A DNA stretch of 53,001 nucleotides from contig JAHIWG010000098.1 of the NCBI GenBank assembly GCA_018816345.1, positions 1 to 53,001 of the forward strand, in the 5' to 3' direction. The position numbers and the translations under genes are program-made. This DNA comes from Spirochaetota bacterium (GTDB lineage: Bacteria; Spirochaetota; Spirochaetia; Treponematales; UBA12059). The notes below the pieces were generated by a model. The model searched no databases. It was not told where the DNA came from and was given only the letters and a program-made list of their open reading frames with translations. This document shows, piece by piece, positions 11,543-30,638 of the stretch (position 1 is its first letter; each line of letters begins with the position of its first letter).

Positions 11543-11555
11543 AGGGAAAACGCGC

Positions 11556-14339: not shown

Positions 14340-14407
14340 TGCCTTCCGCGGCCGTACGATAGCCAACGTGAAAGCCGGACTCGCGCCGTCCGTAGAAAGG
14401 GATACTC

Positions 14408-15586
14408 GTGCTTATCATAAAGAACGCGCTCGTCTATGCTCCTTCCCCTATCGGCTTAAGGGACATAGCCATAGCGGGAGGGAGGATACTCGCCATAGAG
14501 GAGCGTATCGACGAGACGCGCTTGCCCATCGCCCACGAGGTGGTTGACGCGAACGGGGCGATCGTCGTCCCGGGCTTCATCGACGGCCACGTGCACGTGA
14601 CTGGCGGCGGCGGCGAGGGCGGCTTCAGCACGAGGACGCCGGAACTGCGCCTAGGCGACGCTACCCTCGCGGGCGTCACGACGGTCGTCGGCGTCCTCGG
14701 CACGGACGGCGTCTGCCGGAGCGTGGAGGCCCTCGTCGCCAAGACCTACGCGCTCCGCGAGGAGGGCATATCGGCCTGGTGCTATACCGGCTCCTACCGC
14801 GTGCCCGCGACGACGGTGACCGGCGACGTCATGAAGGACGTCATGCTCATAGAGCCGGTGATAGGAGCGGGCGAGATAGCCGTCTCCGACCACCGCTCCT
14901 CGCGGCCAAGCGACGACGAGCTGGCCCGGATCGCCGCCGGGGCCCGCGTCGGGGGCATGCTGTCCGGCAAGGCCGGCGTCGTCAACGTCCATCTCGGCGA
15001 CGCTCCCGACGGGCTCGGCCCCCTGGAGCGCATAGCCGCGGCCGGAGACATTCCGCGCGCCCAGTTCATCCCCACCCACTGCAACAGGAACCCTGCGCTG
15101 TTCGCCAGCTCTATCGCCTGGGCGCGTTCCGGGGGAAGGGTCGACTATACGGCGAGCACGGTACCGGCCTTCCTCGCCGACGGGGAGACGAGCGCCGCCG
15201 AGGCAGTCTCGAGGCTCAAGGCCGAGGGCGTCGACATGTCGCGCGCGACGGTAACCAGCGACGGGCAGGGCAGCCTGCCCCGCTTCGACGCGGCCGGCAT
15301 CATCACGGGGCTGGACGTCGGCTCGTGCTCCAGCCTCCTAGGCTACCTCCGCGAGGCCGTCGGGACGAGGGGCCTTTCCCTGGAGGAAGCGCTGGCGCCC
15401 ATCACGTCCAATCCCGCCGCCGCGCTCAGGCTGCCGCGCAAGGGCAGGCTCGAGGCGGGCATGGACGCGGATCTGGTCGTGCTGACGCCCGAGCTAGGCG
15501 TAGGAACCGTCGTCGCCAGGGGCCGGGTCATGGTCAGGGACGGCGGGCAGGTTGTCCTAGGCGTATTCGAGCGACGCGAGGACTGA
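14408..15586 (+). CDS. iadA: Isoaspartyl dipeptidase (beta-aspartyl peptidase)
   Basis: The 392-residue amidohydrolase cleaves beta-aspartyl dipeptides left by protein damage and turnover. It matches E. coli IadA along its length: metal site His61-x-His63 in GHVHVTGGGGEGG, VVGVLGTDG, YHVP-like YRVPATT, SDHRSS, the PTHCNRN segment and SSDG-like TSDGQGS. The bridging carboxylated lysine of E. coli IadA (VKCAISDHRS) is Glu156 here (GEIAVSDHRS), a substitution also seen in other amidohydrolases. It starts at GTG 14408 behind AAAGGG. It follows the formate dehydrogenase pair by 68 bases. Function with the CocE hydrolases and APC permeases downstream in peptide catabolism is an inference from proximity. 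Confidence 0.9.
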   Translation: MLIIKNALVYAPSPIGLRDIAIAGGRILAIEERIDETRLPIAHEVVDANGAIVVPGFIDGHVHVTGGGGEGGFSTRTPELRLGDATLAGVTTVVGVLGTDGVCRSVEALVAKTYALREEGISAWCYTGSYRVPATTVTGDVMKDVMLIEPVIGAGEIAVSDHRSSRPSDDELARIAAGARVGGMLSGKAGVVNVHLGDAPDGLGPLERIAAAGDIPRAQFIPTHCNRNPALFASSIAWARSGGRVDYTASTVPAFLADGETSAAEAVSRLKAEGVDMSRATVTSDGQGSLPRFDAAGIITGLDVGSCSSLLGYLREAVGTRGLSLEEALAPITSNPAAALRLPRKGRLEAGMDADLVVLTPELGVGTVVARGRVMVRDGGQVVLGVFERRED

Positions 15587-15634: not shown

Positions 15635-16648
15635 ATGAAAGCCATTGAGGGAACAGAACGGGAAACGAGCCATCGCCCTCGTCATGCGCTCGTCCAAAGG
15701 GCTAACGCGAAGGCGCGCGCCGTGATAGCCGGCGTCGCGCCCGCCGCGGCCATGATCGCTCTCGCCTGCCTCGCCGCCTCGTGCGCGGCCTCGCCCGCGG
15801 CCGCACCGAGCGGCGCCGCGACCATCGCCAGGCCGGCCGATACGGGGCCGGGGCCCCTGCGCGTCGGGCATCGCGGCGCCGCCGGGCTCGCTCCGGAGAA
15901 CACGCTGGCCGCCTTCGCGGCCGGGGTCTCGCACGGCGCTGACGCCATAGAGTTCGACGTGAGGATGAGCGCCGACGGCCGCTTCGTCGTGATCCACGAT
16001 CCCAAGGTTGACAAGACTACTCTCGGGAAAGGGCCGGTCGAGGCCCTGCCCTACGCTAGCGTCGCGGCCCTCGACGCGGGCGCGCGATGGAGAAGGCCCC
16101 TGGACGCGCCTCCGGGACTCCCTTCCGACTACGGCCCCCAGCCCGTACCCAGCCTCGAGGATGCCCTGGACTTCTTCGCCGGGCCGCTGGGCGCCTCCGC
16201 GGGCCTACAGGTCGAGATCAAATTCCGGGAGGACGGGAGCCGCTATCCCGGCGTCGAGGAAGCGGTCGTCGAGGGGCTCCGATCACGAGGCCTCCTAGGG
16301 CGGGCCGCCGTCATATCGTTCGACTTCAGGACGCTGGCGGCGGTACGGGCCCTCGAGCCGGGGCTCAAGACCTGCGCGCTAGCAGGCAAGGCGTTCTTCG
16401 CGGCCATGAAGGGTTCGAGCCCGAGCGCCATAGCCTCGGCCCTCGCCGCCGCGGGCGCGGACGGCGTCGGGCTAGACGAGCGATACCTGTCGGAACGGCT
16501 CTACGTCGAGCTCAGGGCGGCGGGCCTCGCGATAGGCGCCTGGACGGTGGACGACCCGGCGAGGATGCGCGAGCTCGCCAGCCTCGGCGTCGATTTCATA
16601 ACGACCAACCGCCCGGACCTGCTCGTCGCCGCCGTCCCGCGGCCCTAG
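15635..16648 (+). CDS. Glycerophosphodiester phosphodiesterase, lipoprotein
   Basis: The 337-residue enzyme hydrolyses glycerophosphodiesters to glycerol 3-phosphate and an alcohol. A long basic N-terminus is followed by a hydrophobic segment and a probable lipobox LAASC (Cys50), so it should be lipid-anchored outside the cytoplasm, as GlpQ is in Treponema and relapsing-fever Borrelia. GDPD motifs: GHRGAAGLAPENT (substrate and catalytic His), FDVRMSADGRFVVIHD (metal ligands and second His), QVEIKFR, and late AWTVDDPARM. The first ATG is supported by the -10 geometry. It overlaps the convergent transporter gene by 4 bases. Confidence 0.88.
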   Translation: MKAIEGTERETSHRPRHALVQRANAKARAVIAGVAPAAAMIALACLAASCAASPAAAPSGAATIARPADTGPGPLRVGHRGAAGLAPENTLAAFAAGVSHGADAIEFDVRMSADGRFVVIHDPKVDKTTLGKGPVEALPYASVAALDAGARWRRPLDAPPGLPSDYGPQPVPSLEDALDFFAGPLGASAGLQVEIKFREDGSRYPGVEEAVVEGLRSRGLLGRAAVISFDFRTLAAVRALEPGLKTCALAGKAFFAAMKGSSPSAIASALAAAGADGVGLDERYLSERLYVELRAAGLAIGAWTVDDPARMRELASLGVDFITTNRPDLLVAAVPRP

Positions 16649-17883
16649 AGCAGTATCCCGACGAGGCCGGCTATCGCTATGGCCGCGAAGTTGGTGACCA
16701 GGGCGGACGCGGCCTCGACGTCGGGCGCCAGCTCCGCCTCTATGGCGGCGCGCGTCCCATCGTCGGCCGAGACGGAGCCTATGACGCCCCTCGCGACGAC
16801 CATGGGTGGCGGCATGCTTATCATGCAGGCCGAGGCTATGGCCAGGCCCCTGTACGCGCTGCCGGCGAATCGCTTGCCTAGCGCCGCCCCGACGAGCCCG
16901 ACGACGGAGGCTCCGACGGCGAGGACGGCGAGGGTCGGGCCCGCGAGCGCGAGCACTACGCCCGGGGGCGTGGCCGCGAGGCTGTCCGCCATCAAGGCCA
17001 TGAGCCCCAGCATGAGGAAGCCCATGGCCCCGGACTTTACGAGGGGGTCTCGCTCGAGGATGCCGAGCCTGGCGAGCAGGGCCCCGAGCACGAGTCCCGT
17101 GAGGGCGGGGTGCACGCCCAGCCGCATGAACACGGCGCCGTAGAGCCAGCGGTTGAAGACGGCCACGAGCATCAGCGCGGCTAGATAATACGAGATAGTC
17201 CTATAGCGCCCCGGGATCCGCTCGCAGAGCGGCGCCCGCGACGGCGCGAGCCCGGCCGCCACCGAGGCGGAATCGGCGGAGACCCTGGCCCCGGCTCGCG
17301 GCTGAGCCGCCGCGCCGGAGCCCGCGGTCGTTCCCGAGGCGCGGAGAGCCGCGAGCCTGCCGGCCTCCTTGCGCGTCGCGAAGGCGAACAGCGGCAACCC
17401 GAAGAAGCCCTGGGCCATGAATATCATCCACGGGAGGGCGGCGAGGCCAGGCAGCTTGCGTATCGCGGAGTTGGACGCTATCGCGCACGCCGCGCCTCCA
17501 CCGACGACGGGGCCGATAGACAGCAGGGCCGCCTCTCGCCCCACGACCGGAGACATCCCGAGGCCCAGGACGACGGCCAGGGCCGCGGCGCAGGCCAGGC
17601 CTATCGCGACGGCCCCGCGCCTGGCGCGCAGGCTCTTGAAGTCGAGCAAGGTTCCCGAGTGGACGATGAGCACGTTGAATGCGATGAACCCCACGTCGCG
17701 CATCCTCGACGCGGAGACGAAGTCCTTAGGCAGGACGCCGAGCGCGAAACCCGCGACGCATAGGGCGCCCAGGGCGAGCGGCAGGGATATCCTCGACTTC
17801 GTCGCTATCGCGAGCGATTGGGACGCGAACACGATCAGCAGGAACGCGAGCAGGCTCAGTTCGAAGCTCCACGGCATAGGCAT
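16645..17883 (-). CDS. Multi-pass membrane transporter, family not assigned
   Basis: The 412-residue protein is hydrophobic throughout, with about 10-11 membrane segments in two halves split by a charged, Ala-rich cytoplasmic loop (about 165-220). GPVVGGGAACAIASNSA in the first half and ASACMISMPPPMVVA in the second look like the paired re-entrant or discontinuous helices of secondary carriers of the GltS or DUF819 type. I could not place it firmly. GGGAG lies just before the ATG. It is downstream of the first CocE gene on the same strand, separated by a 16-bp tandem repeat, and could export or import a peptide breakdown product (inference). Confidence 0.6.
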   Translation of the reverse strand: MPMPWSFELSLLAFLLIVFASQSLAIATKSRISLPLALGALCVAGFALGVLPKDFVSASRMRDVGFIAFNVLIVHSGTLLDFKSLRARRGAVAIGLACAAALAVVLGLGMSPVVGREAALLSIGPVVGGGAACAIASNSAIRKLPGLAALPWMIFMAQGFFGLPLFAFATRKEAGRLAALRASGTTAGSGAAAQPRAGARVSADSASVAAGLAPSRAPLCERIPGRYRTISYYLAALMLVAVFNRWLYGAVFMRLGVHPALTGLVLGALLARLGILERDPLVKSGAMGFLMLGLMALMADSLAATPPGVVLALAGPTLAVLAVGASVVGLVGAALGKRFAGSAYRGLAIASACMISMPPPMVVARGVIGSVSADDGTRAAIEAELAPDVEAASALVTNFAAIAIAGLVGILL

Positions 17884-18041: not shown

Positions 18042-19883
18042 TTAATGCGTGGCGCCGGCCCCGCTGCCGCCGAAGCTGCCGCCGCCGTCGAACGACTGCA
18101 GCCAGTTCTCGCCGGGGGTCGACGGGATAAGGGGCAGGAGCACGTAGGACTGGTAGTCCTTGTCGCGGTATATCTTGTAGTTGATGGTGGTGGCGCTGGG
18201 TATCGGGCCCATGTTGCCCACCTTGCCCATCCACGTGCCGTCCTGGTGCTCGAACGAGTCCATCGCCTTGATCTCCAGCTCTAGGCAGGTGCCCGGGTCG
18301 AAGACCATGCCGATGGGGTTTATCTCGATGGTGTATTCCCTGATCTCGCCGGGCGTGACCGGGACGCGCTTGGTGTGGTCGTGCGCCGGCCGGCCTATCT
18401 GCGAGCGCGCCGGGTCGAGCCGGTGCGAGGCCTTGAGCGAGCCGGTGCGGCACAGCGGCATGCGCGTCCCGCCCTGGGTTATCTGCCACATCTTGACTAT
18501 GAAGTTGGCGTCGGGGGCGTCTATCGAGGCGAAGAGATGCAGCTCCACGGGACCGGTGAATTCCATAGGCTTACTGAACCTGTCGGTCCGGTAGACGAGC
18601 GTCTCGACCTTGGTCGTGATGTTGGGCGGGCGATGCGTGAAGCTGTCCGGGGGCAGGTTCCCCTCGGGATCGGATTCCCAGCGCATCTGGCCGAAGGTCC
18701 GGAGGAACAGCTTCTTCCACTCGGTACGGGCCAGCGGGTACTCGTGCTCGTAGCGGTAGCCGCGGCCTATGATGTTCATCTTGTACCGCGGCTCCTCGAG
18801 GATTCCGGTGTCGACGCCCTTCATCCAATGGTCGTACCAGCGGAGGCACTCCTCGTTCATGAAGCGGTAGGGAAGCTCCATGCCGCCGTAGGCCTCCATC
18901 ACGCCGCAGCGCTTATAGACGTCCAGCTCCTTGGCGTTCATCGCGTTGAAGACCGGCGCGCTCCAGCGGCCCGTGGGAGCCCATCCGCACTTCAGGTACG
19001 TGGGCACCTTTACCTTGTCGTAGACGTTCTTCGCGGAGCGCTGGGCCCAGAAGGGGCCGTCCTCGGGATGGAGGAGGTAGTCGAGGTAGAAGGTATGGTA
19101 CTTCGGGGGCCAGGTGTTGAAGATCTTGTTGAAGTACGAGATGATCGCGATGTCCGGGTCCTTCTGGACCTCCTTCATCCGCTTCTTCATCTCCTCCTCG
19201 GAATACATCTTCGAGGACCAGGTGACCGGGTTGTTGGCGGGGCATAGCTCCCAGTACATCGTCATGTAGGTATTCGCGACGCCGCCGTAGTACCCGTGCT
19301 GATAGTAGTCGTCGGTGTACGACAGGGGCATGATGCAGGTCAGGTGCGGGGGCTGCAGGGCGGCGACGAGCATCTGGATGATGCCGTAGTACGAGTAGCC
19401 GAGCATCGCTACCTTGCCGTCGGAATGACCGTACTTCGCGCCGAGCCACTCGATGACGTCGTACGCGTCCTCCTGCTCCTGCGGGTTATAGACGCCGAGG
19501 AATTCGCCCTCGGACATGCCGATGCCCCGGGGATCGGGGATGACGAAGACGTAGCCGCGCTGGACGAAGAACTCGATGTCGCCGGCCTCGAGGCTGTGGT
19601 CGAAGTAGAGGGACGAGCCGGGCAGGGCGCCGCGCTTCATCGCCTGCATGGTCTTGCCGTAGTCGGCCCACGACAGGAGGACGGGAGCCTTGTCCAGCTC
19701 GGCCGGCCGGTAGATATCGGCGTAGATCTTGACGCCGTCGCGCATGGCTATCTCGACGTTCTCCTCGAAGACCATCGTGTACCGGGGCTTGGAGAGCTTG
19801 TCCAGGTTCTTCGTATATCGCCTATCCCAATACGGCGGGATCTTCGTCAGACCCGACGCCTTCGTGAAATCTTCAAGCATCAT
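18042..19883 (-). CDS. CocE/NonD family hydrolase (peptidase S15-like), paralogue 1
   Basis: The 613-residue alpha/beta hydrolase belongs to the CocE/Xaa-Pro dipeptidyl-peptidase group, which cleaves esters, acylated amines or X-Pro dipeptides. The nucleophile Ser164 lies in LGYSYYG; VIPDPRGIGMSEGEF (about 114-128) is the usual oxyanion-side block; the C-terminal third is the beta-jelly-roll domain. No signal peptide is seen, so it is probably cytoplasmic. It ends in a Gly/Ser-rich tail (GGGSFGGSGAGATH). It is very close to paralogue 3 and less so to paralogue 2. AAGGAGG precedes the ATG. Upstream, TGTC-N8-GACA is centred at -41.5 of the predicted start, so Crp-type activation is expected. 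Confidence 0.88.
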   Translation of the reverse strand: MMLEDFTKASGLTKIPPYWDRRYTKNLDKLSKPRYTMVFEENVEIAMRDGVKIYADIYRPAELDKAPVLLSWADYGKTMQAMKRGALPGSSLYFDHSLEAGDIEFFVQRGYVFVIPDPRGIGMSEGEFLGVYNPQEQEDAYDVIEWLGAKYGHSDGKVAMLGYSYYGIIQMLVAALQPPHLTCIMPLSYTDDYYQHGYYGGVANTYMTMYWELCPANNPVTWSSKMYSEEEMKKRMKEVQKDPDIAIISYFNKIFNTWPPKYHTFYLDYLLHPEDGPFWAQRSAKNVYDKVKVPTYLKCGWAPTGRWSAPVFNAMNAKELDVYKRCGVMEAYGGMELPYRFMNEECLRWYDHWMKGVDTGILEEPRYKMNIIGRGYRYEHEYPLARTEWKKLFLRTFGQMRWESDPEGNLPPDSFTHRPPNITTKVETLVYRTDRFSKPMEFTGPVELHLFASIDAPDANFIVKMWQITQGGTRMPLCRTGSLKASHRLDPARSQIGRPAHDHTKRVPVTPGEIREYTIEINPIGMVFDPGTCLELEIKAMDSFEHQDGTWMGKVGNMGPIPSATTINYKIYRDKDYQSYVLLPLIPSTPGENWLQSFDGGGSFGGSGAGATH

Positions 19884-19913: not shown

Positions 19914-19956
19914 ATAGTAGCAGGAGCGCGCGCCATCCTATGTCGCGGGCACGACA
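19914..19956 (-). promoter_or_regulatory. Promoter with Crp/Fnr-type operator, site A
   Basis: TGTCGCGGGCACGACA (19941-19956) is a TGTCG-N6-CGACA palindrome. On the minus strand a TACTAT hexamer (19914-19919) predicts a start at 19907, putting the operator centre at -41.5, with a 24-base leader to the CocE gene. No -35 box is needed at a class II site. Confidence 0.72.
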
Positions 19957-19964
19957 GACGAGGT

Positions 19965-19996
19965 AAAAAAAAGCCGCCGGGACGGATCCCGGCGGC
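19965..19996 (-). terminator. Rho-independent terminator of CocE paralogue 2
   Basis: A perfect 10-bp stem (19973-19982 with 19987-19996) with a 4-base loop is followed on the minus strand by eight T. It begins 7 bases past the stop region of the upstream gene and separates it from site A of the next gene. Confidence 0.93.
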
Positions 19997-20002
19997 GCGT
20001 CG

Positions 20003-21796
20003 TCAATCGAACGACTGGACCCAGTTCTCGGGCGGCGTGCCCGGTATGTACGGCATCACGAGGTGGGACTGCCGCTTCGCGTCGCGGTAGACGCGGTAGC
20101 AGATCGAGGCCGCGCTAGGTATCGGCCCCATGCTGGCGACCTTGCCCGTCCAGCTGGACTTATGGCTCATGTTGGGATCCATGGCCTTTATCTCGAGCTG
20201 GATGCGATGGCCGGGCATGAAGACCTTGCCCGAGGGGTTGATCTCTATATGGTACTCCCTGACCTCGCCGGGCTTGACGGGGACGGACTTGGAATGGTCG
20301 TGCACGGGCAGCCACGGCGTCGATTCCTCGGGCACGATCGGGTGAGAGGCCTTGAGGGCGCCGAAGCAGGGCATGTAGTGGCGCTCCCCGTTGGGGTACA
20401 GCTCGTGCACCTTGACCACGAAATTGGCGTCCGCCGCGTCTATAGACGCGAAGAGGTGCAGCCCGATGGGGCCCGTGAATTCCATGGGCCTGGTAAGGGG
20501 CTCGCTCGTGTACGTGAGGCTCTGCACCTCGGAGCTGATATTAGGCGGGTTGTGCACGAACGCGTCGGGCGTTATGTCCGCCTCGGCGTCCGGCTCCCAG
20601 CGGAGCCTCCCGAAGCTCCGTAGGTAGAGCTTCTTCCAGGACGTCCTCGCGAGCGGCCATTCCCGCTCGTAGCGATAGCCGGAGCCGAGGATGTTGAGCT
20701 TTATAGGGGGCTCCTCCATCATGCCGGTATCCACGCCCTTGAGCCACAGGTCGTACCAGCGGAGGCATTCCTCGTTCATCGAGCGGTACGGGAGCTCGAG
20801 CTCGCCGTAGTCCTCGACGTTGACCCGCTTGGGAACGGCGAGCTTATCGGAGTTGAAGGCGCGCAGGAGCGGCGTCACCCATCGGCCGTTGGGCGACCAG
20901 GCCGAGTTGAGGAAGACGGGCACCTTCACCTTGTCGAGCATATGCCGCGCCGAGCGCTGGGCCCAGAACGGGCCTTCCTCGGGGTGCAGGAGGTAGTCGA
21001 GGTAGAAGCTATGGTAGGTAGGCGGCCAGGTGGTCAGTATCTTCTGGAAGTACGAGTTGACGGCCATGTCGGGATCCTTGGCCCGCTCGGCCATCCGGCG
21101 CCTCACCTCTTCCTTGGAATACATCTTCATCGACCACGGCACGGGCGCGTTGGCCGGGCAGAGCTCCCAGTACATCGACATGTACGTATTGCCGACGCCG
21201 CCGTAGTAGCCGTGCTGGTAGTACTCGTCGGTGAACGACAGCGGCATGATGCACTTGAGGCTGGGCGGCTGCTGGGCCGCGACGAGCATCTGCACGATGC
21301 CGAAGTACGAGTACCCGACCATGCCTACCTTGCCGTCGCACCAGTCCTGAACGGCCATCCACTCGATGACGTCGTAGGCGTCCTCGTGCTCCTGCGGGTT
21401 GTAGATGCCGTAGAACTCGCCCTCCGACTGGCCGATGCCCCTGGGGTCGGGGATGACGAAGACGTAGCCGCGGCTCACGAAGAAGTCGATGTCGCCGGCC
21501 TCGAGGCTGTGGTCGAAGACCAGGGACTCGGGCGGCTGGGGCCCGCGCTTCATCGACTGTATGGCCTTGCCGTACGGCGACCACGACAGGAGGGCCGGGA
21601 AATCCCCGTCCGCGTCGGGCCTGAAGACGTCGGCGCAGATGCGCGTCCCGTCGCGCAGGGTCATCCAGACGTCGCGCTCGGCCTTGACGCCGTAGAGCGG
21701 TTTCGAGAGCTTGTCGATGTTCTTCACGTAGCGCCTATCCCAGTACTGAGGGATGCGGCTCAGGCCCGAGCTGCTCAGGGTCTCATCGATCGACAT
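20003..21796 (-). CDS. CocE/NonD family hydrolase (peptidase S15-like), paralogue 2
   Basis: This 597-residue protein is the second CocE-type hydrolase. Ser163 is the nucleophile in VGYSYFG; the shared N-terminal block YWDRRYVKNIDKLSKP and VIPDPRGIGQSEGEF are kept. It differs from the other two across the C-terminal jelly roll and lacks their Gly-rich tail, so its substrate may differ. The start at 21796 is set by GGAGG 5 bases upstream; a TTG four codons earlier would bury that site. It is bounded by terminators on both sides, so it is a single-gene transcript. Its upstream region has no perfect TGTC-N8-GACA site but has a direct repeat at 21865-21897. Confidence 0.87.
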   Translation of the reverse strand: MSIDETLSSSGLSRIPQYWDRRYVKNIDKLSKPLYGVKAERDVWMTLRDGTRICADVFRPDADGDFPALLSWSPYGKAIQSMKRGPQPPESLVFDHSLEAGDIDFFVSRGYVFVIPDPRGIGQSEGEFYGIYNPQEHEDAYDVIEWMAVQDWCDGKVGMVGYSYFGIVQMLVAAQQPPSLKCIMPLSFTDEYYQHGYYGGVGNTYMSMYWELCPANAPVPWSMKMYSKEEVRRRMAERAKDPDMAVNSYFQKILTTWPPTYHSFYLDYLLHPEEGPFWAQRSARHMLDKVKVPVFLNSAWSPNGRWVTPLLRAFNSDKLAVPKRVNVEDYGELELPYRSMNEECLRWYDLWLKGVDTGMMEEPPIKLNILGSGYRYEREWPLARTSWKKLYLRSFGRLRWEPDAEADITPDAFVHNPPNISSEVQSLTYTSEPLTRPMEFTGPIGLHLFASIDAADANFVVKVHELYPNGERHYMPCFGALKASHPIVPEESTPWLPVHDHSKSVPVKPGEVREYHIEINPSGKVFMPGHRIQLEIKAMDPNMSHKSSWTGKVASMGPIPSAASICYRVYRDAKRQSHLVMPYIPGTPPENWVQSFD

Positions 21797-21864
21797 GGAA
21801 TCCTCCAAGAACGTTGATGTAGCGCCGCGACAGAGGCGGCAGATTCCGTTCGGTACTATTTTTC

Positions 21865-21897
21865 ACCCGGATCATGGAGGCCGACCCGGGATCATGG
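21865..21897. repeat. Direct repeat upstream of CocE paralogue 2
   Basis: ACCCGGATCATGG and ACCCGGGATCATGG recur about 19-20 bp apart, about two helical turns, between the permease terminator and the CocE gene. The spacing suits a dimeric regulator, but none is identified. Confidence 0.45.
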
Positions 21898-21903
21898 TAG
21901 CGG

Positions 21904-21939
21904 AAAAAGGAGCCGCGGCACGGAATCAACCGCGGCTCC
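21904..21939 (-). terminator. Rho-independent terminator of APC permease 1
   Basis: A perfect 10-bp stem (21909-21918 with 21930-21939), 11-base loop and, on the minus strand, five T. It lies 30 bases past the permease stop. Confidence 0.88.
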
Positions 21940-21968
21940 GCTTATGCGCGGGTGCTAATACGCCGGCC

Positions 21969-23354
21969 CTACGCCTTCGAGGCCAGCTTCGCGGCGGCCA
22001 GCTTCTCTCGCTCGGCCCACGGCTCGTAGGGCTTCTTCATCGTCGCGAGCATATCGACGCCGTGCTTCGACTTGAGGTACTTGGCCCGGCCGAGGACGTA
22101 CGCGAAGGCCACGACGTAGAAGACCGCCATGGTGATATAGTTCTTCGGGGCCATCTGCTTGAGGACGTAGCTTCCCAGGAGGAGGCAGAGCGCGGACGCT
22201 ACGACCACCACGATGCAGTTGAGCCAGTGGGGGACGTTGAGGAAGGCGGTCTTGTACGAGGAAGGATACTTCACGGGCAGCCAGAAGACGGCGGCGAGGA
22301 TTATCGGGGACAGGAGCAGGCCCGGTATCGACGTGATGTTGATGACGTCCGTGAGGTTGAAGCCGGCCGCCATCGCGAGGACCGCTATGGCGGTATTGAG
22401 CCAGATGGCGTTGGCGGGAGCCCCGTGCTTGTTTATCTTCATGATCGCTGCGGGATATAGGCCGTCTCGGGCCGCGGCCATGTGGCAGCGGGAGAACATG
22501 AGGATGGCCGAGTTGATGCTGGTCACGACGGCCAGGAGGGCGCCCCCGGATATGAAGAAGGTCAGCGCGGTCGGGGACATGAATATCTTGGCCGTGGTGG
22601 CGAGGTTGTCTATCTTGAAGAACTGCGGCATGACGCCCACGGTCACGTAGGCCATGGCCGCGTAGATGAAGGCGGTCACGATCGTGCCGACGATGAACGC
22701 TATCGGGATATTCTTCCCGGGGTTCTCTATCTCGTCGGCTACGTACATGAGGGCGTTGGCGCCCATGAGGCTGCCGTGCATGATGCCCATCGCGGCCCAC
22801 AGCTTGGACAGCTTGAAGGTCGTGGATAGCACCGCGCCGAGCGTCACGACGGTATTGCCCCATCCCATGAAGACGTACAGCCCTATGGCGGAGAGCAGGA
22901 CGACGACCATCACGTTCTGCACCCACGAGGCCAGCTTGATGCCGTAGAGGGTGAGTATCGTGAACAGGATCGTGATCGCCACCGAGACGACTACCACGGG
23001 GGCGCTCGGCACCAGCATCGCGAAGTACGTCCCGAAGGTCAGGGCCATCGTCGCGACCTTCATGGGCCCGACGACCAGGTAGTTGATGGAATGCAGTATT
23101 CCGACCGACGGGTGGATTAGCCTCGTCAGGTGCATGTACGAGCCGCCGCTCGCCGGCAAGGCGGAGGACGTGACCATCTCCGGCCAGGTCTTCACGAATA
23201 CGAAGACCGAGGCGAGGATGAATCCCCATACGATGCCGTTCCCCCCTATTATCTTGATGGCTATCGGCGTCGTCGCGAATATGCTGGCGCCGACGATGCT
23301 GCCGATTCCCATCAAGATGCTGGAGAATAGGGTCATCTTCTTGTCTTTGTTCAT
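21969..23354 (-). CDS. APC-superfamily amino acid permease 1
   Basis: The 461-residue protein should carry amino acids or related amines across the inner membrane by cation symport or exchange. It has about 12 hydrophobic helices and the APC helix-1 motif GIGSIVGASIFATTP (about 16-30), which unwinds to bind the substrate amino and carboxyl groups. The start at 23354 is chosen from TTGGAGG 5 bases upstream; the open frame continues upstream without APC-like sequence. It lies between CocE paralogue 2 and the divergent Crp/Fnr gene. Operator site B is centred at -40.5, giving an 86-base leader. The substrate is unknown. Confidence 0.88.
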   Translation of the reverse strand: MNKDKKMTLFSSILMGIGSIVGASIFATTPIAIKIIGGNGIVWGFILASVFVFVKTWPEMVTSSALPASGGSYMHLTRLIHPSVGILHSINYLVVGPMKVATMALTFGTYFAMLVPSAPVVVVSVAITILFTILTLYGIKLASWVQNVMVVVLLSAIGLYVFMGWGNTVVTLGAVLSTTFKLSKLWAAMGIMHGSLMGANALMYVADEIENPGKNIPIAFIVGTIVTAFIYAAMAYVTVGVMPQFFKIDNLATTAKIFMSPTALTFFISGGALLAVVTSINSAILMFSRCHMAAARDGLYPAAIMKINKHGAPANAIWLNTAIAVLAMAAGFNLTDVINITSIPGLLLSPIILAAVFWLPVKYPSSYKTAFLNVPHWLNCIVVVVASALCLLLGSYVLKQMAPKNYITMAVFYVVAFAYVLGRAKYLKSKHGVDMLATMKKPYEPWAEREKLAAAKLASKA

Positions 23355-23446
23355 AGAACCTCCAAATGGCGAGCTGCCTACGGTCGCGACCTCGCGGACC
23401 AAGCCGCCGACCGTTAGTAATCGTCGAGAACCCCGACCAGACTTGA

Positions 23447-23488
23447 AGTATACAGGCGCTCCCCGATCGCTATGTCGCGCAGGAGACA
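23447..23488 (-). promoter_or_regulatory. Promoter with Crp/Fnr-type operator, site B
   Basis: TGTCGCGCAGGAGACA (23473-23488) is TGTC-N8-GACA. On the minus strand TATACT (23447-23452) predicts a start at 23440 and an operator centre of -40.5 for the permease gene. The same site is at about -96 for the divergent regulator gene, so it may also serve autoregulation. Confidence 0.75.
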
Positions 23489-23539
23489 GACTGAAGCCCA
23501 AAAATAAACGGTCCGGACCGCGTTAGCCGGCGAAAAAGA

Positions 23540-23570
23540 CTGACAGCCGGCGCGCGAACTCGTCTATAAT
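23540..23570 (+). promoter_or_regulatory. Promoter of Crp/Fnr regulator 1
   Basis: A perfect TATAAT (23565-23570) is preceded by CTGACA (23540-23545) at a long 19-bp spacing. The start is predicted near 23577, leaving a 20-base leader with GGGAGG. Confidence 0.6.
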
Positions 23571-23596
23571 GGCGCTATCACGCGGGAGGTATAGGA

Positions 23597-24334
23597 ATGC
23601 TACCGGATAAAAAAGCCAGCGAGATTCTATCATGCCTCAAGAACTGCCCCCTATTCGACCAGGTCGGCGACGACGTCCTCCGGAGGCTCTCCACGGTATG
23701 CGCCATCAAGCGGGTGGAGAAGGGAGCGGTGCTCTTCACCGAAGGAGAGGCGTCGAGCTCCCTCTTCGTTGTCATGAGCGGCTCCGTCGTCGAATACGTG
23801 ACGGGGCCGAACGACCTCGAGCTCGCAGTCAAGGAAAGGCGTCCGTTCGACTATTTCGGGGAGATAAGCATGCTCATAGAGGAGCCTAACTTCGTTACCG
23901 CCATAGCGTCCCAGCCCTCGGTCCTCGCCGTCATACCGCGCAACGAGTTCCTGGCCCGTACCAGAACGGAGCCGTCGATCTCGCAGCACATCATACGCGT
24001 GCTCGCGCATAGGCTGCTGCTGTCGGCCCATCACCAGATAGCGTTCCTCTACCTCGACGCCTCCTCCCGGCTCGCGTACCTCCTCCTGACGCTCGAGGCC
24101 GAGTCCGGGGGCACGGGCGTCGTGACGTCGTCGCAGGAGAGCCTCGCCCAGCGATGCGGCCTGGCCAGGCAGACGGTCGCGAGGCTCCTGGGCGAATGGA
24201 AGGACGCGGACTGGATTAAGACGAGCCGCGGCAGGATCGAGGACATAGACACCAAGGCGCTCAACCATATACTGACGATGTCGTGCTACGACAAGGACAT
24301 CAACGCCATAGGCGACCTCAACAGGAAATGCTGA
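23597..24334 (+). CDS. Crp/Fnr-family transcription regulator 1
   Basis: The 245-residue protein has a cyclic-nucleotide-type beta-barrel (about 15-125), a dimer helix and a winged HTH (about 175-235). In the phosphate-binding cassette FGEISMLIEEPNFVTA the Arg-Ser that CRP uses for cAMP is missing, so another ligand is likely. It has no FNR-type N-terminal four-Cys cluster. The recognition helix reads R191-Q192-T-V-A-R196, against Arg-Glu-x3-Arg in CRP. It is divergent from APC permease 1 with operator B between them and is a close paralogue of the regulator at 29054, sharing an unusual C-terminal MSCYDKD. Predicted activator of the CocE/APC genes. Confidence 0.9.
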   Translation: MLPDKKASEILSCLKNCPLFDQVGDDVLRRLSTVCAIKRVEKGAVLFTEGEASSSLFVVMSGSVVEYVTGPNDLELAVKERRPFDYFGEISMLIEEPNFVTAIASQPSVLAVIPRNEFLARTRTEPSISQHIIRVLAHRLLLSAHHQIAFLYLDASSRLAYLLLTLEAESGGTGVVTSSQESLAQRCGLARQTVARLLGEWKDADWIKTSRGRIEDIDTKALNHILTMSCYDKDINAIGDLNRKC

Positions 24335-24337
24335 GCC

Positions 24338-24367
24338 GGGGCCGGGCGCTCGCGGCGCCCCGGCCCC
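24338..24367. terminator. Hairpin between convergent regulator 1 and APC permease 2
   Basis: A 12-bp GC stem (24338-24349 with 24355-24367, one bulged C) lies just past the regulator stop and before the permease stop. No T tract follows in either direction, so termination is inferred from the convergent position. Confidence 0.55.
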
Positions 24368-24375
24368 CGCGAGCG

Positions 24376-25773
24376 TCAGGATGCCGCCTTGGCGGAGAGT
24401 TCCTTCTCCCTCTCTATCCACGGGGCGTACGGCTCGCGCATCTTCGCGTAGATGTCTATCCCCTTCGCCTTCTTGAGGTATCGCCAGCGTATCCACGTAT
24501 ACGCGGCGGCGATGGCGTAGAACGCTACCATTATGATCCACGTCCGCGGCGTCATCTTAGCGATTATGGACCCTCCCAGCAGGAAGCTTAAGGAAGCGGC
24601 TATCACGACGAACACGATATTGAGCCAATGGGGGAACCGCAGGAAGCAATCCTTATAGCAGAGAGGATACTTCCTCGGCACGAAGAAGATAGACAGGAAG
24701 ATCACCGGGTTCATGACGAGGCCGGGCATCGAAACCATGAGCAGGATCTCGTCGAGGTCGAGCCCCGATATTATGGCGACGACTCCTATCGCCGAATTGA
24801 GGACGATCGCCCATCCCGGCACGCCGAACTTGTTGATCCTCGCGATAAAGGCCGGGAAGACCATGTCTCGGGCCGCGACCGAATGGGAACGGGAGAACAT
24901 CAGGATAATGGCGTTAATGCTCGTGGCGACCGCCAGGAGGGGACCCCCGACGATGAAGAACGCCAGGAGCCTGGGCCCGAGGTAGGTACCGGCCGACGAC
25001 GCCAGGTTAAGGGAGCGGTCGGAGAGCCACTTCTCGAGGGGAATGGCGCCGATCGATACGAACGCCATCAGCGCGAATATCAACGCGCATATGAGCGTGC
25101 TCAGGATGAAGACTATGGGGATAGTCCTTCGAGGATTCTCTATCTCGTCTGCCGCGTACATGAGCACGTTCGCGCCGATGAGGCTGCCGTGGAGGAGCCC
25201 CATCGGGGCCCATAGCTTGGAGAAGGAGATGGCGGGCGCCAGGACCTCCTTGATCGAGATGCTGGAACCCGGGATACCGCCGAAAATGAACACGGCGAGG
25301 GCGGCGAGCAGCACGATAACCGAGACGTTCTGTACCCAGCCCGAGACCTTGACGCCGAACAGGGACAAGGCGGTGAATAGGACGGCGATGAAGACGGCGA
25401 CCGACCGGGGCGGCAGCGACGGTACCAGCACCTTGAAGTACTGCGCGAATACCATCGCGAGTATGGCCACGTTAATAGTCCCTATGACGAGCTGGTTGAA
25501 GGCGTGAACGACGCCGAACGACGGGTGCACGAGCCGCGTCAGGTGCATATACGCCGATCCGTTGGCCGGCAGGGACGAGCTCATGACGATCTCGGGCACC
25601 GTCTTGAAGAAGACGAATATCGCCGCCAGGAAGAATCCCCAGACGACCCCGTTACCCACGAGCCGGATGACGAGCGGGGTCTTCGCGAAAATACCCGCTC
25701 CTATGATCGCGCCGACTGCCATGAATAGACTCATGGAGAAAGACATCTTCCTGGACGCAACGCTCTTTTCCAC
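24376..25773 (-). CDS. APC-superfamily amino acid permease 2
   Basis: The 465-residue protein is a paralogue of permease 1, with about 12 membrane helices and the helix-1 motif AVGAIIGAGIFAKTP. The start is taken as GTG 25773 (reading MEKSVASRK), 6 bases after GGAGG; a longer frame upstream has an Arg-rich, un-permease-like sequence. It is divergent from CocE paralogue 3. Its own operator, site D, is centred at -41.5 of a predicted start at 25841. With permease 1 it probably brings in the substrates, or carries the products, of the CocE hydrolases. Confidence 0.88.
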   Translation of the reverse strand: MEKSVASRKMSFSMSLFMAVGAIIGAGIFAKTPLVIRLVGNGVVWGFFLAAIFVFFKTVPEIVMSSSLPANGSAYMHLTRLVHPSFGVVHAFNQLVIGTINVAILAMVFAQYFKVLVPSLPPRSVAVFIAVLFTALSLFGVKVSGWVQNVSVIVLLAALAVFIFGGIPGSSISIKEVLAPAISFSKLWAPMGLLHGSLIGANVLMYAADEIENPRRTIPIVFILSTLICALIFALMAFVSIGAIPLEKWLSDRSLNLASSAGTYLGPRLLAFFIVGGPLLAVATSINAIILMFSRSHSVAARDMVFPAFIARINKFGVPGWAIVLNSAIGVVAIISGLDLDEILLMVSMPGLVMNPVIFLSIFFVPRKYPLCYKDCFLRFPHWLNIVFVVIAASLSFLLGGSIIAKMTPRTWIIMVAFYAIAAAYTWIRWRYLKKAKGIDIYAKMREPYAPWIEREKELSAKAAS

Positions 25774-25847
25774 TCTAGGCCTCCTATCGATGCTGTCGCC
25801 GCTCCTTCGGGACCTATCGCGCATCCCCGCGGCCGCTTATCGACTAC

Positions 25848-25890
25848 AGGATACGGCCACGCCGTCGCGCCGAGTGTCTCAATAGCGACA
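25848..25890 (-). promoter_or_regulatory. Promoter with Crp/Fnr-type operator, site D
   Basis: TGTCTCAATAGCGACA (25875-25890) is TGTC-N8-GACA. On the minus strand TATCCT (25848-25853) predicts a start at 25841 and a centre of -41.5. The leader to the GTG of permease 2 is 68 bases. Confidence 0.68.
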
Positions 25891-25934
25891 TAGCCATGAT
25901 TCCCGCCCGGTTCTCCGGACGCTATTCCGAGGCG

Positions 25935-25946
25935 CCTCGATCGAGG
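25935..25946. promoter_or_regulatory. 12-bp perfect palindrome between sites D and C
   Basis: CCTCGATCGAGG is a perfect palindrome in the divergent region between APC permease 2 and CocE paralogue 3, about 11 bp from site C. It could bind a second regulator; none is identified. Confidence 0.35.
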
Positions 25947-25956
25947 ATACCCGCTC

Positions 25957-25999
25957 TGTCGCAATTAGGACAGAGCGGTCCCCGACTCGGGCGTACAGT
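25957..25999 (+). promoter_or_regulatory. Promoter with Crp/Fnr-type operator, site C
   Basis: TGTCGCAATTAGGACA (25957-25972) sits inside a longer perfect 10-bp inverted repeat (25951-25978). TACAGT (25994-25999) predicts a start at 26006 and an operator centre of -41.5, with a 24-base leader identical in length to that of CocE paralogue 1. Confidence 0.7.
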
Positions 26000-26029: not shown

Positions 26030-27874
26030 ATGACAAGGGACGAGTTTAAGGAGATCTCTGGCCTCGACGATATTCCGTTATACTGGGACAGGAGGTACGC
26101 CACCAACCTCGACAGGCTTTCCAAGCCGGGACGGCCGTCCCGCCTCGAAGAGAACGTACCGATAGCGCTACGCGACGGGACGACGATATACGCCGATATT
26201 TACCGGCCGGACGACGACGGCGAGTACCCCGCCCTGCTCGCGTGGTCGGCCTACGGCAAGACGATGCAGGCGCTGAAGCGAGGCTCGCTGCCGGGATCGT
26301 CGCTCTATTTCGACCATAGCCTCGAGGCGGGCGACATAGACTTCTACGTCAGCCGCGGATACCTATTCGTCATTCCCGATCCCAGGGGCATCGGCGTATC
26401 CGAAGGCGAGTTCCTGGGGATATATAATCCGCAGGAGCAGGAGGACGTCTACGATACCGTCGAGTGGCTCGGGAACGACTGTCCCTGGTGCGACGGTTCC
26501 GTCGGCATGCTCGGATACTCCTACTTCGGGCTCATACAGACTCTCGCGGCGGCGAAGAGGCCGCCCCATCTCAAGTGCATCATGCCCATGGGCATGAGCG
26601 ACGACTACTACCAGCACGGACACTACGGCGGGGTCGCGAACACCTATATGACGATGTACTGGGAGCTCTGCCCGGCCAATAACCCCGTGACGTGGTCGTC
26701 GAAGATGTATACGGAAGAGGAGATGAGAGCGCGGATGCGGGAGGTCCAGAAGGATCCGGACATAGCCGTCGTCTCGTACTTCAACAAGATATTCAACACC
26801 TGGCCCCCTCGATACCATACCTTCTTCCTCGACTTCCTGCTGCATCCCGAGGACGGCCCCTTCTGGAAAGAGCGCTCGTCGGGCCCGATATTCAAGGACA
26901 TCGAGGTACCCGTCTACTTCAAGTGCGGCTGGGCCCCGAACGGGAGGTGGAGCGCGCCCGTATTCGCGGCGATGAACTCGGCCGAGCTCCGGGCCTACAA
27001 GCGATGCGGCGTCATGGAGTCGTACGGCGGCATGGAGCTGCCGTACCGATTCATGAACGAGGAGTGCCTGCGCTGGTACGATCATTGGCTCAAGGGCGCC
27101 GACACGGGCATCGTGGACGAGCCTCCCTTCAAGCTGAATATCATAGGGAGGGGCTACCGCTACGAACGGGAATGGCCGCTCGCCCGGACCGAATGGAAGA
27201 AGCTGTACCTCCGGACCTTCGGCCAGCTACGCTGGGAACCCGACCCCGAGGGCGACCTGCCGCCGGACTCGTTCACGCATCGGCCCCCTAACATCGCCAC
27301 CGGCGTCGAGACGCTCGTCTATAGGACCGACAGGTTCAGCAAGCCTATGGAATTCACCGGCCCGATAGAGCTCCGCCTCTTCGCGTCCATAGACGCGACG
27401 GACGCGAACTTCATCGTGAAGGTCTGGCAGATAACCCAGGGCGGGACGCGGATGCCGCTATGCCGCTACGGGGCCCTCAAGGCCTCCCACCGGCTCGACC
27501 CGGCGCGCTCGCAGATAGGCCGGCCGGCGCACGACCATACGAGGCGCGTTCCCGTCGTTCCCGGGGAGATACGCGAGTACGTGATAGAGATAAATCCCAT
27601 CGGCATGGTTTTCGATCCCGGGACCAGCCTAGAGCTCGAGATCAAGGCCATGGACCCGTTCGAGCACCAGGACGGGACATGGATGGGAAAGGTTGGGAAC
27701 ATGGGACCCATACCGAGCGCTAGCACCATCAATTATAAGATATACAGGGATAGGGACCATCGATCGCACATCCTCCTGCCTCACGTGCCGAACAGCCCGG
27801 CCGACTCGTGGCTCCAGGGGATCGGCGAGTCCTCGTCCTTCGCGGGCGCCGGAGCGGCGGGAGGCACGCATTGA
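26030..27874 (+). CDS. CocE/NonD family hydrolase (peptidase S15-like), paralogue 3
   Basis: The 614-residue protein is closely related to paralogue 1 along its full length. Ser164 in LGYSYFG is the nucleophile; VIPDPRGIGVSEGEF and the C-terminal jelly roll are conserved, as is a Gly/Ala-rich tail. The start at 26030 is set by AAGGAG 7 bases upstream. It heads an operon: its TGA overlaps the TTG start of the C-S lyase gene, which in turn overlaps regulator 2. Operator C places the operon under the predicted Crp-type control, so regulator 2 is probably autoregulated. Confidence 0.88.
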   Translation: MTRDEFKEISGLDDIPLYWDRRYATNLDRLSKPGRPSRLEENVPIALRDGTTIYADIYRPDDDGEYPALLAWSAYGKTMQALKRGSLPGSSLYFDHSLEAGDIDFYVSRGYLFVIPDPRGIGVSEGEFLGIYNPQEQEDVYDTVEWLGNDCPWCDGSVGMLGYSYFGLIQTLAAAKRPPHLKCIMPMGMSDDYYQHGHYGGVANTYMTMYWELCPANNPVTWSSKMYTEEEMRARMREVQKDPDIAVVSYFNKIFNTWPPRYHTFFLDFLLHPEDGPFWKERSSGPIFKDIEVPVYFKCGWAPNGRWSAPVFAAMNSAELRAYKRCGVMESYGGMELPYRFMNEECLRWYDHWLKGADTGIVDEPPFKLNIIGRGYRYEREWPLARTEWKKLYLRTFGQLRWEPDPEGDLPPDSFTHRPPNIATGVETLVYRTDRFSKPMEFTGPIELRLFASIDATDANFIVKVWQITQGGTRMPLCRYGALKASHRLDPARSQIGRPAHDHTRRVPVVPGEIREYVIEINPIGMVFDPGTSLELEIKAMDPFEHQDGTWMGKVGNMGPIPSASTINYKIYRDRDHRSHILLPHVPNSPADSWLQGIGESSSFAGAGAAGGTH

Positions 27875-29073
27875 CGGCCGCGGAAGACGGCGCGTACGAC
27901 TTCGACGCGCCGATCGACCGGCGCGGCACCGGATGCGTCAAGTGGGACCTCCTCGGGCGGGCCTTCGGCAACCCGGACCTCATCCCCCTATGGATAGCCG
28001 ACACCGACTTCGCGGCGCCCGACGAGGTCGTCGCGGCGCTACGGGCGAGGTTGAATCATCCCGTATTCGGCTACACGACGGCGCCGGACGACTTCGCCCC
28101 TTCGCTCCGCGACTGGCTGGCCCGGAGGCACGGGTGGCGGCCCGACGCGTCGTGGATAGTCCCCGCGGAGGGCCTCGTCGCGGCCGTCGCGATGGCGATG
28201 AACGCGCTCACGCGCGAGGGCGACTCCGTCGTCATCCAGCCTCCCGTGTACGATCCGTTCTTCGGCGTAGTAGAGGCCAACGGCCGACGGCTCGCGCTCA
28301 ACCCGCTACGGAGGAGCGCGGCCGGCCGCTGGGAGATGGATCTAGCCGGCCTCGAGGCCCTGTTCGAAGGCGGCGCCCGGTGCATGATACTCTGCAGCCC
28401 GCACAACCCGGTCGGGAGGGTCTGGACGGCGGGCGAGCTCTCGGAGCTCGCGTCGCTATGCGCCCGCTACGGCGTATTCATCATAAGCGACGACATACAC
28501 TCGGACCTGGCTCTCGGCCCCGTCCCCTATACGCCTATCGGCGCGGTCCCCGGGGTCGACCCCGACAGGCTCGTCTCGTGCTACGCGCCGGGCAAGACGT
28601 TCAACCTCGCCGGGCTCAAGGGCTCCGCCGTCGTCATCCCGGGCGAGCGCGCGCGCAAGTCGTTCTGCGCCTACCAGGAGCGGTTCCACGGCTGCAAGCC
28701 CTCCGCGACCGCGTTCGCCGCCTTCGTCGCGGCGTATCGCTCCGGCGACGCCTATGCCGACGGCCTGGCGCGATACGTCTCGGGCAACGCCCGCTACGCT
28801 AGGGAATTCATAGCGTCGAGCATACCCAGCCTCGCGGCCGAGGAGCCGGAGGGTACGTTCCTCATGCTCGTGGATTGCTCGACTCTCGGCCTCGAGAGCT
28901 GGGATCTCGTCAATTTCTTCAAGGACGAGGCCGGCGTCCTCTTCTCCAGGGGAGCGGCGTACGGCGAGGCCACCAAGGCGTACGTAAGGATGAATATCGG
29001 TTGCCCGAGGTCGACGCTCGAGACGGCGCTCGGAAGGGTCGGGGACGCGTGCCGTGGAAAAACCGGACGATGA
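27871..29073 (+). CDS. PatB/MalY-family PLP-dependent C-S lyase
   Basis: The 400-residue enzyme should cleave carbon-sulfur bonds of cystathionine, cysteine or S-conjugates to pyruvate, ammonia and a thiol; MalY/PatB members can also act as aminotransferases. Signatures: FDAPIDRRGTGCVKWD at the N-terminus, PLWIADTDF (about 39-47), CSPHNPVGR (about 175-183), SDDIHSDL and the PLP lysine 242 in PGKTFNLAGLK. The start is TTG 27871, overlapping the CocE stop as TTGA, with GGGAGG 6 bases upstream. In this operon it may process sulfur amino acids released from peptides (inference). Confidence 0.86.
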   Translation: MTAAEDGAYDFDAPIDRRGTGCVKWDLLGRAFGNPDLIPLWIADTDFAAPDEVVAALRARLNHPVFGYTTAPDDFAPSLRDWLARRHGWRPDASWIVPAEGLVAAVAMAMNALTREGDSVVIQPPVYDPFFGVVEANGRRLALNPLRRSAAGRWEMDLAGLEALFEGGARCMILCSPHNPVGRVWTAGELSELASLCARYGVFIISDDIHSDLALGPVPYTPIGAVPGVDPDRLVSCYAPGKTFNLAGLKGSAVVIPGERARKSFCAYQERFHGCKPSATAFAAFVAAYRSGDAYADGLARYVSGNARYAREFIASSIPSLAAEEPEGTFLMLVDCSTLGLESWDLVNFFKDEAGVLFSRGAAYGEATKAYVRMNIGCPRSTLETALGRVGDACRGKTGR

Positions 29074-29770
29074 CGAGGATACCATCGCTTGCCTCGCGCG
29101 CACGCAGATATTCAAGGAGCTCTCCGCGGAAAGCCTGCGGCGGCTCGCGGCGGTATGCTCGAAGAAGCGGATACCCAAGGGCTTCGTCCTATTCGTGGAA
29201 GGAGAGCGGGCGGAGCAACTCTATATCATAATGAGGGGCGCGATAGCGGAGTACGCGACGGGGCCGAACGAGATAGAAGTAATAATAAAGGAATTGAAAC
29301 GGGGCGATTATCTAGGCGATATCGGCATCCTAGTGGACGAGCCGCATTACATAACCGCGATAGCGTCTCAGCCGACGACGGTCCTCGTCCTCTCGAGGAA
29401 CGAATTCCTCTACCGCGTCCGCACCGAGCCCTCGGTTTCCCAGACGCTCGTCAAGACGCTCGCGCATCGCCTGCTCCTCGCGGCCCGCCATTCGATAGCC
29501 TACTCGAACCTCGACTCCACGACGAGGCTCGCGTACCTCGTCCTGACCCTCGAGAGGCAGGAGGGAGGGAAGGGCTTCGTCTCGTGCTGCCAGGACGACC
29601 TCGCCCGGCGTTGCGGGCTGGCCAGGCAGACGGTAGCCCGCGTCCTCGGGGCCTGGAGGGACGCGGGGTGGGTCCGGACGAACAGGGGCCGCCTCGAGGA
29701 TATAGATACCGCGGCGCTCAACCGCATCCTGCCGATGTCGTGCTATGATAAGGACACCGACGTTATCTGA
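29054..29770 (+). CDS. Crp/Fnr-family transcription regulator 2
   Basis: The 238-residue protein is the paralogue of regulator 1 with the same layout and matching residue positions: beta-barrel, dimer helix, and winged HTH with R191-Q192-x3-R196. The cassette LGDIGILVDEPHYITA again lacks the Arg-Ser for cAMP. Both proteins share RTEPS(I/V)SQ, LAHRLLL and the terminal MSCYDKD, so they probably bind related ligands and the same DNA site. The GTG start overlaps the lyase gene by 20 bases, meaning translational coupling. It has no promoter of its own and should be expressed from operator C. Confidence 0.9.
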   Translation: MEKPDDDEDTIACLARTQIFKELSAESLRRLAAVCSKKRIPKGFVLFVEGERAEQLYIIMRGAIAEYATGPNEIEVIIKELKRGDYLGDIGILVDEPHYITAIASQPTTVLVLSRNEFLYRVRTEPSVSQTLVKTLAHRLLLAARHSIAYSNLDSTTRLAYLVLTLERQEGGKGFVSCCQDDLARRCGLARQTVARVLGAWRDAGWVRTNRGRLEDIDTAALNRILPMSCYDKDTDVI

Positions 29771-29855
29771 GGCCCCGGCGCGAGGCGCGGTGGCCGTCGC
29801 GACCGGGCCGGCCCGTCGGGCTACGCAGGAGTCCTGGCTCCAAGGAGGAATCGCG

Positions 29856-30638
29856 GTGAATCCTTTCCTGTTATCGGCGATCGCAGCTATCGCGGTGAAC
29901 GGAGCGTTCTTCGCCTACGCCGTCGCTAAGAAGACGGACGTCGTCACCGACCTATCGTACAGCCTCTCGTTCGCCCTCGTCGCGGCGGCCTTCATCGCAA
30001 CGGGAGCGTCTTCGGGGCCCGTCGCGCTGGCGCCGGCCGCGCTCACGGTCGTCTGGGCGGCGAGGCTAGGCGCCTACCTGTTCGGCCGCATACGCGTCGC
30101 CAAGGTCGACCATAGGTTCGACGGCATGAGGGAGAAGCCGCTCAAGTTCGCCAGGTTCTGGATCCTGCAGGCGGTAGCCGTGGCTGTCATCCTGCTGCCC
30201 GTCTCGTCCGCCGCGGCGGCCGCCGCGAGGCTCCGCGGCTTCGGCGCGTTCCAGATACTAGGCGCGGCGATGTGGCTCGCGGGCTTCGCCCTCGAGGTCG
30301 CGGCCGACGCGCAGAAGTCGGCGTTCAAGAAGGCCGGGAAGCCCGGCTTCATCGCTACGGGGCTGTGGAGCTACTCCCGCCACCCCAATTACTTCGGCGA
30401 GGCGCTCCTATGGTGGGGGCTCTTCGTCTACGCGGCTCCCGCCCTCAGGGGCGCGCAGTGGCTCGCCGCGCTGGGCCCAGCCTTCATAACGGCGCTCCTG
30501 CTTTTCGTCAGCGGCGTACCGCTCCTCGAGAAGGCCGCCGACGCGAAGTACGGCGCCGATCCGGCCTATATCGACTATAAGCGCCGGACCAGCGTCTTCG
30601 TCCCGTGGCCGCCGAGGCGCGCTACTCGCTCATCGTAA
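29856..30638 (+). CDS. DUF1295 / steroid 5-alpha-reductase-like membrane protein
   Basis: The 260-residue protein has about six membrane helices and the DUF1295 hallmarks: DVVTDLSYS, LGAYLFGRI, and the C-terminal GLWSYSRHPNYFGEALLWWG, the NADPH-binding type block shared with sterol reductases and isoprenylcysteine methyltransferases. The role in bacteria is not settled; a lipid or isoprenoid substrate is likely. The start is GTG 29856 behind AAGGAGG; the frame is open 37 codons further upstream but overlaps the regulator gene there. Its 3' end overlaps the convergent FakA-DegV gene by 17 bases. Confidence 0.85.
   Translation: MNPFLLSAIAAIAVNGAFFAYAVAKKTDVVTDLSYSLSFALVAAAFIATGASSGPVALAPAALTVVWAARLGAYLFGRIRVAKVDHRFDGMREKPLKFARFWILQAVAVAVILLPVSSAAAAAARLRGFGAFQILGAAMWLAGFALEVAADAQKSAFKKAGKPGFIATGLWSYSRHPNYFGEALLWWGLFVYAAPALRGAQWLAALGPAFITALLLFVSGVPLLEKAADAKYGADPAYIDYKRRTSVFVPWPPRRATRSS

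Follow-up and report, generated by a model that had tools for sequence, protein, structure and literature searches.

The window (the whole 53-kb stretch of DNA that was analysed) contains a cluster of genes for CocE/NonD hydrolases, amino-acid permeases (APC) and Crp/Fnr-family regulators, with four perfect TGTC-N8-GACA palindromes, here called operators 1 to 4, in the gaps between them (Table 1). The reading frame listed for APC1 starts at a TTG (21969-23501) and overlaps operator 2; judged from the sequence, the gene very probably begins at the ATG at 23355, since a GGAGG lies just before it and the homologue in a genome of the same genus (G004) has the same start. Operator 1 sits directly after the predicted terminator at 19996-19973, which would insulate CocE1 from CocE2. 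CocE2 has no operator of its own, and the gene before it, APC1, ends in a terminator-like hairpin recognised by eye (about 21907-21938), so that transcription of CocE2 would need read-through or a promoter that escaped recognition. CocE3, PatB, Crp2 and DUF1295 are probably a single operon downstream of operator 4, with the DUF1295 gene as its probable end, and Crp2 itself would then be under the control of the circuit. A TATAAT was noticed by eye upstream of crp1 (23565-23570; unlisted by the consensus scan), and crp1 may be constitutive. On the forward strand at 9761-15586, genes for a NuoEF-like fusion, a formate dehydrogenase alpha subunit and a beta-aspartyl-peptidase follow in succession, with no TGTC-N8-GACA in front of them. 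A membrane protein of about 410 amino acids, starting with MPWSFE or MSWSFE and matching no Pfam or NCBIfam family, accompanies the CocE genes in the three Crp-bearing genomes.

Table 1. Coordinates of genes, operators and promoter elements of the cluster, in the window unless another locus is given
Feature	Position	Strand	Basis or remark
Membrane protein, MPWSFE/MSWSFE start	16645-17883	-	Also L086 3262-4455; L055 from 12178
CocE1, CocE/NonD (S15-like) hydrolase	18042-19883	-	Domain profiles
-10 hexamer TACTAT of CocE1	19914-19919	-	Gap 21 bp from palindrome
Operator 1, TGTCGTGCCCGCGACA, read towards CocE1	19941-19956	-	Pattern count; -10 at 21 bp
Intrinsic terminator after CocE2	19973-19996	-	Terminator, strong
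CocE2, CocE/NonD hydrolase, without own operator	20003-21808	-	Domain profiles
APC1, amino-acid permease	21969-23355	-	Start presumed at ATG behind GGAGG
-10 hexamer TATACT of APC1	23447-23452	-	Gap 20 bp from palindrome
Operator 2, TGTCTCCTGCGCGACA, read towards APC1	23473-23488	-	Pattern count; -10 at 20 bp
Crp1, Crp/Fnr-family regulator, recognition helix ARQTVAR	23597-24334	+	Domain profiles
APC2, amino-acid permease	24376-25774	-	Start presumed at GTG behind GGAGG
-10 hexamer TATCCT of APC2	25848-25853	-	Gap 21 bp from palindrome
Operator 3, TGTCGCTATTGAGACA, read towards APC2	25875-25890	-	Pattern count; -10 at 21 bp
Operator 4, TGTCGCAATTAGGACA	25957-25972	+	Pattern count; -10 at 21 bp
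-10 hexamer TACAGT of CocE3	25994-25999	+	Gap 21 bp from palindrome
CocE3, CocE/NonD hydrolase	26030-27874	+	Domain profiles
PatB-family C-S lyase/aminotransferase-fold enzyme, overlaps CocE3	27808-29073	+	Domain profiles
Crp2, paralogous Crp/Fnr-family regulator, same recognition helix, overlaps PatB	29054-29770	+	
DUF1295 membrane protein, overlaps Crp2	29745-30638	+	

The original prediction had placed perfect palindromes at four positions in upstream regions and had put the chance expectation below one in 53 kb. A pattern count of the window recovered exactly these four, in the gaps CocE2/CocE1, APC1/crp1 and APC2/CocE3, and dinucleotide shuffles of the window gave a mean of 0.30 sites, a maximum of 2 and never four. 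Operator 4 is nested in a longer inverted repeat (CCGCTCTGTC/GACAGAGCGG). The -10-like hexamers were also as described in sequence and spacing, each lying downstream of its site and oriented towards a CocE or APC gene, and the palindrome centres of -41.5, -40.5, -41.5 and -41.5 (operators 1 to 4) are reproduced if the hexamers occupy positions -12 to -7. TANNNT, which covers all of them, is a loose -10 match, and TACAGT is a weak -10.

Pattern searches of the 3.80-Mb assembly found ten TGTC-N8-GACA sites. The combined pattern TGTC-N8-GACA-N20-21-TANNNT occurred exactly four times, always in this cluster; the reversed control gave no match, and the six sites elsewhere had no TANNNT at that distance on either side. 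Three of these six lie inside long open frames resembling real genes (L001, L006 and L007); another overlaps an apparent tRNA T-arm, as seen by eye (L010), and the last two (L008 and L009) do not fall in any clear gene. When one mismatch was allowed in the search for a wider regulon, the only matches outside the cluster were C114:3689 and C131:34279, the latter with its mismatch within the operator. The former (G000:C114:3689-3704; L008 1501-1516), TGTCTCCGCCGCGACA, agrees with the extended consensus described below, making it the fifth such site, and lies about 105 nt before a gene for a small predicted secreted protein, with only CATACT as the hexamer at 21 bp. The proposed regulon stands as a real set of sites with predicted promoters, but as a local circuit with one weak candidate elsewhere, not as a wide one, and it is essentially confined to this cluster. 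The background of the combined pattern in relatives was below one per genome on average. Two AT-rich relatives also had four matches, but these were scattered or equalled by their controls; the signal is the clustering of the sites, not their bare count.

Among 394 genomes of the order, an orthologue of Crp1 was present in only two others, G004 (60% identity) and G056, which belongs to another family (66%), so that the conservation evidence concerns a regulator found in three genomes. In both, the orthologue adjoins the same CocE/APC genes. A single-regulator scan of genome contigs found only distant relatives (identity of at most 32%), but says little on spread because its exact-peptide seeds would miss orthologues of 60-66% identity. 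The gene order in G004 (crp / site / APC, CocE-A, site, CocE-B, membrane protein) is mirrored in the window (crp1 / site 2 / APC1, CocE2, site 1, CocE1, membrane protein), and the position of operator 1 has its equivalent in G004 (L055:10172). In G056, the stretch between crp and CocE-A contains a site whose hexamer, TATCCT, is 20 bp away. Over whole genomes, the combined pattern matched twice in G004 and once in G056, in each case in the orthologous cluster and before CocE/APC genes. The APC operators of this genome (operator 2) and G004 share 14 of 16 bases, against only 7 of 30 in the 30 bp upstream. Taking the three genomes together, a -10 at 20-21 bp was present at seven of the eight cluster sites and at none of the 23 other sites (p about 3e-6). 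The remaining cluster site, a perfect TGTCGCGCGGGCGACA at L054 (G056:C110) 87-102, lies shortly downstream of the regulator gene in G056, close to a contig end, and lacks a -10 at this distance on either side.

The seven operators with a -10 in the three genomes have the extended consensus TGTCgC-N4-GcGACA. Half-site bases 5 and 6 played no part in site selection, and their composition was compared between these seven operators and the non-cluster sites of the same genomes: base 6 was C in 12 of 14 cluster halves versus 9 of 46 non-cluster halves (p = 1.3e-5), and base 5 was G in 9 of 14 versus 10 of 46 (p = 0.005). It is most improbable that the palindromes arose by chance, or that their GACA arms are simply parts of ordinary -35 elements (TTGACA). 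GACA is indeed contained in the sigma-70 -35 consensus, and TGTC-N8-GACA is a short pattern that occurs at background level elsewhere. However, the palindromes lie 20-21 bp from the -10 instead of 16-18 bp, and none of the seven Crp-type promoters matched a -35 hexamer at 16-18 bp from the -10 in more than two of six bases; both spacing and match speak against the GACA arms being -35 elements. Such an origin would also leave the dyad symmetry, the confinement to the cluster and the conservation in two other genomes unexplained, and it is contradicted by the extended symmetry conserved in three genomes.

The recurrent gap of 20-21 bp between operator and TANNNT in seven promoters of three genomes corresponds to a class II position (centre at about -41.5), and these promoters, lacking a -35, should be weak without an activator. 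A useful contrast is provided by G012, a genome of the same family, in which genes for CocE-A, APC and CocE-B (49-77% identity to the query proteins of the window) are followed by another open frame, and in which no close relative of Crp1 was found. Here, in the region L085 (G012:C20) 6600-7302, the divergent neighbour is a MarR-family gene, whose position suggests that its product controls the module. The 9.3-kb contig contains no TGTC-N8-GACA, even with one mismatch, and the CocE-A promoter has both a full -35 and a -10 (TTGACA-N17-TACCCT). A dyad, ACTTG-A-CAAGT, overlaps this -35, as seen by eye, and is plausibly a MarR operator. The -35-bearing promoter of G012 and the -35-less Crp-type promoters indicate that the same genes lie behind a repressor-type or an activator-type promoter according to the regulator; at the CocE/APC module, repressor-type and activator-type control appear to have been exchanged. 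The same comparison bears on whether the Crp regulators act at these sites mainly as repressors, with a dimer at about -41 blocking access of RNA polymerase. Crp-family proteins are capable of repression, and these sites do overlap the -35 region, but repression remains an unlikely mode of action: all seven promoters lack a -35 and, unless activated, would be expected to be weak, the fixed spacing of 20-21 bp is needed by class II activation and not by repression, and it is the module with the MarR-family gene that has the full -35.

Both Crp1 and Crp2 matched PF00027 (cNMP-binding-type) and PF13545 (HTH_Crp) above cutoff. An AlphaFold model built from four sequences had a mean pLDDT of 53, with about 80 in the HTH, and was of poor quality in the rest of the protein. 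The recognition helix is (A/S)RQTVAR in all four regulators compared, SRETVGR in E. coli CRP (reference identical to 1g6n), SRQTTST in Rhodospirillum rubrum CooA (identical to 1ft9) and TRQTVSV in Carboxydothermus hydrogenoformans CooA, so that the position of CRP E181 is occupied by Q both in these regulators and in CooA. In CRP, E181 recognises base pair 4 of TGTGA, and the CooA operator has C at that place. The known CooA operator consensus is TGTCGGCNNGCCGACA (PMC545781), and by this analogy the operator to be predicted from an RQT helix agrees with the operator found. The palindromes might instead serve another regulator whose gene lies elsewhere in the genome, given that assigning a transcription factor to an operator by neighbourhood is indirect and that the genome encodes about ten Crp-domain proteins. 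This is very unlikely, as sites with a -10 occur only beside this regulator subfamily in three genomes, are missing from the G012 module with its MarR-family gene, and have the TGTC that the RQT helix predicts.

CooA, the CO-sensing Crp-family activator of R. rubrum, Desulfovibrio and Carboxydothermus, is one of the closest known systems, sharing the TGTC-N8-GACA operator and the RQT with which the recognition helix begins. The inner operator bases differ (TGTCgC-N4 here, TGTCGGC-N2 in CooA), as do the targets (CocE hydrolases and APC permeases here, CO dehydrogenase (coo) genes for CooA), and overall identity to the R. rubrum protein is about 22%. In CooA the haem ligand is His77 and the region equal to CRP 72-82 is absent (PMC12937710). 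In the alignment of the present regulators, that stretch is present rather than shortened and contains no His, so that there is no equivalent of His77. E. coli CRP at class II promoters is alike in fold family and domains, and in having a -10, no -35 and a predicted dimer site centred near -41.5, but it reads TGTGA-N6-TCACA with RET, where TGTC is paired with RQT here. Its cAMP-contacting R82-S83, the phosphate-binding pair of the cAMP cassette, is not kept: the four regulators have F-V, Y-I, F-V and P-V in these columns, and the scores against the NCBIfam CRP equivalog were 55 and 66 bits (cutoff 266). Haem and cAMP sensing are thus both disfavoured by the residues, and neither CO nor cAMP is likely to be the signal. 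The best reading, by analogy, would be a CooA-like DNA specificity with no recognisable haem or cAMP pocket, and the simplest guess is that the signal is a ligand formed from the compound that is transported or hydrolysed. In Desulfitobacterium, CprK controls halorespiration genes and has an operator of a different type. CprK is described as a pathway-specific Crp-family member answering an organic ligand (PMC2610375), and to that extent resembles the local Crp-family activator of a catabolic cluster proposed here.

It is highly probable, as far as sequence can tell, that Crp1, and possibly also Crp2, is a class II activator acting on the four predicted operators at promoters with a -10 and no -35. 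The class II Crp-family assignment made originally is supported by the confinement to the cluster, the recurrent spacing, the missing -35 and the helix matching that of CooA. In the circuit that we infer, an intracellular signal would lead the Crp dimer to bind TGTCgC-N4-GcGACA centred at about -41, and the bound dimer would contact RNA polymerase and activate, rather than repress, APC1, CocE1, APC2 and the overlapping CocE3-PatB-Crp2-DUF1295 genes. The circuit would serve to take up and degrade a compound that is peptide-like or an acylated amino acid; 'peptide/amino-acid' is suggested by the S15-like hydrolase and APC families and the nearby beta-aspartyl-peptidase gene. The circuit is of a well-known general type and is itself apparently unreported, as had been supposed: literature searches of open-licence papers gave the CooA motif and no such regulon. 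More tentatively, and with somewhat less than even confidence, the regulators may constitute a distinct Crp-family clade with CooA-like specificity but without haem, answering a new amino-acid- or peptide-derived ligand and exchanged with a MarR-family regulator at this gene module in related lineages, with promoters that have a -35 in the MarR case and none in the Crp case.

The cluster offers a testable pair of operator and regulator, with a defined site, a defined -10 spacing and one helix difference from CRP, in which the change from E181 to Q predicts TGTC instead of TGTG. G012 supplies a natural comparison, having the same genes with a MarR-family neighbour and a -35-bearing promoter. 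With a likely activator assigned to the CocE/APC module, there is also a route to the inducing compound.
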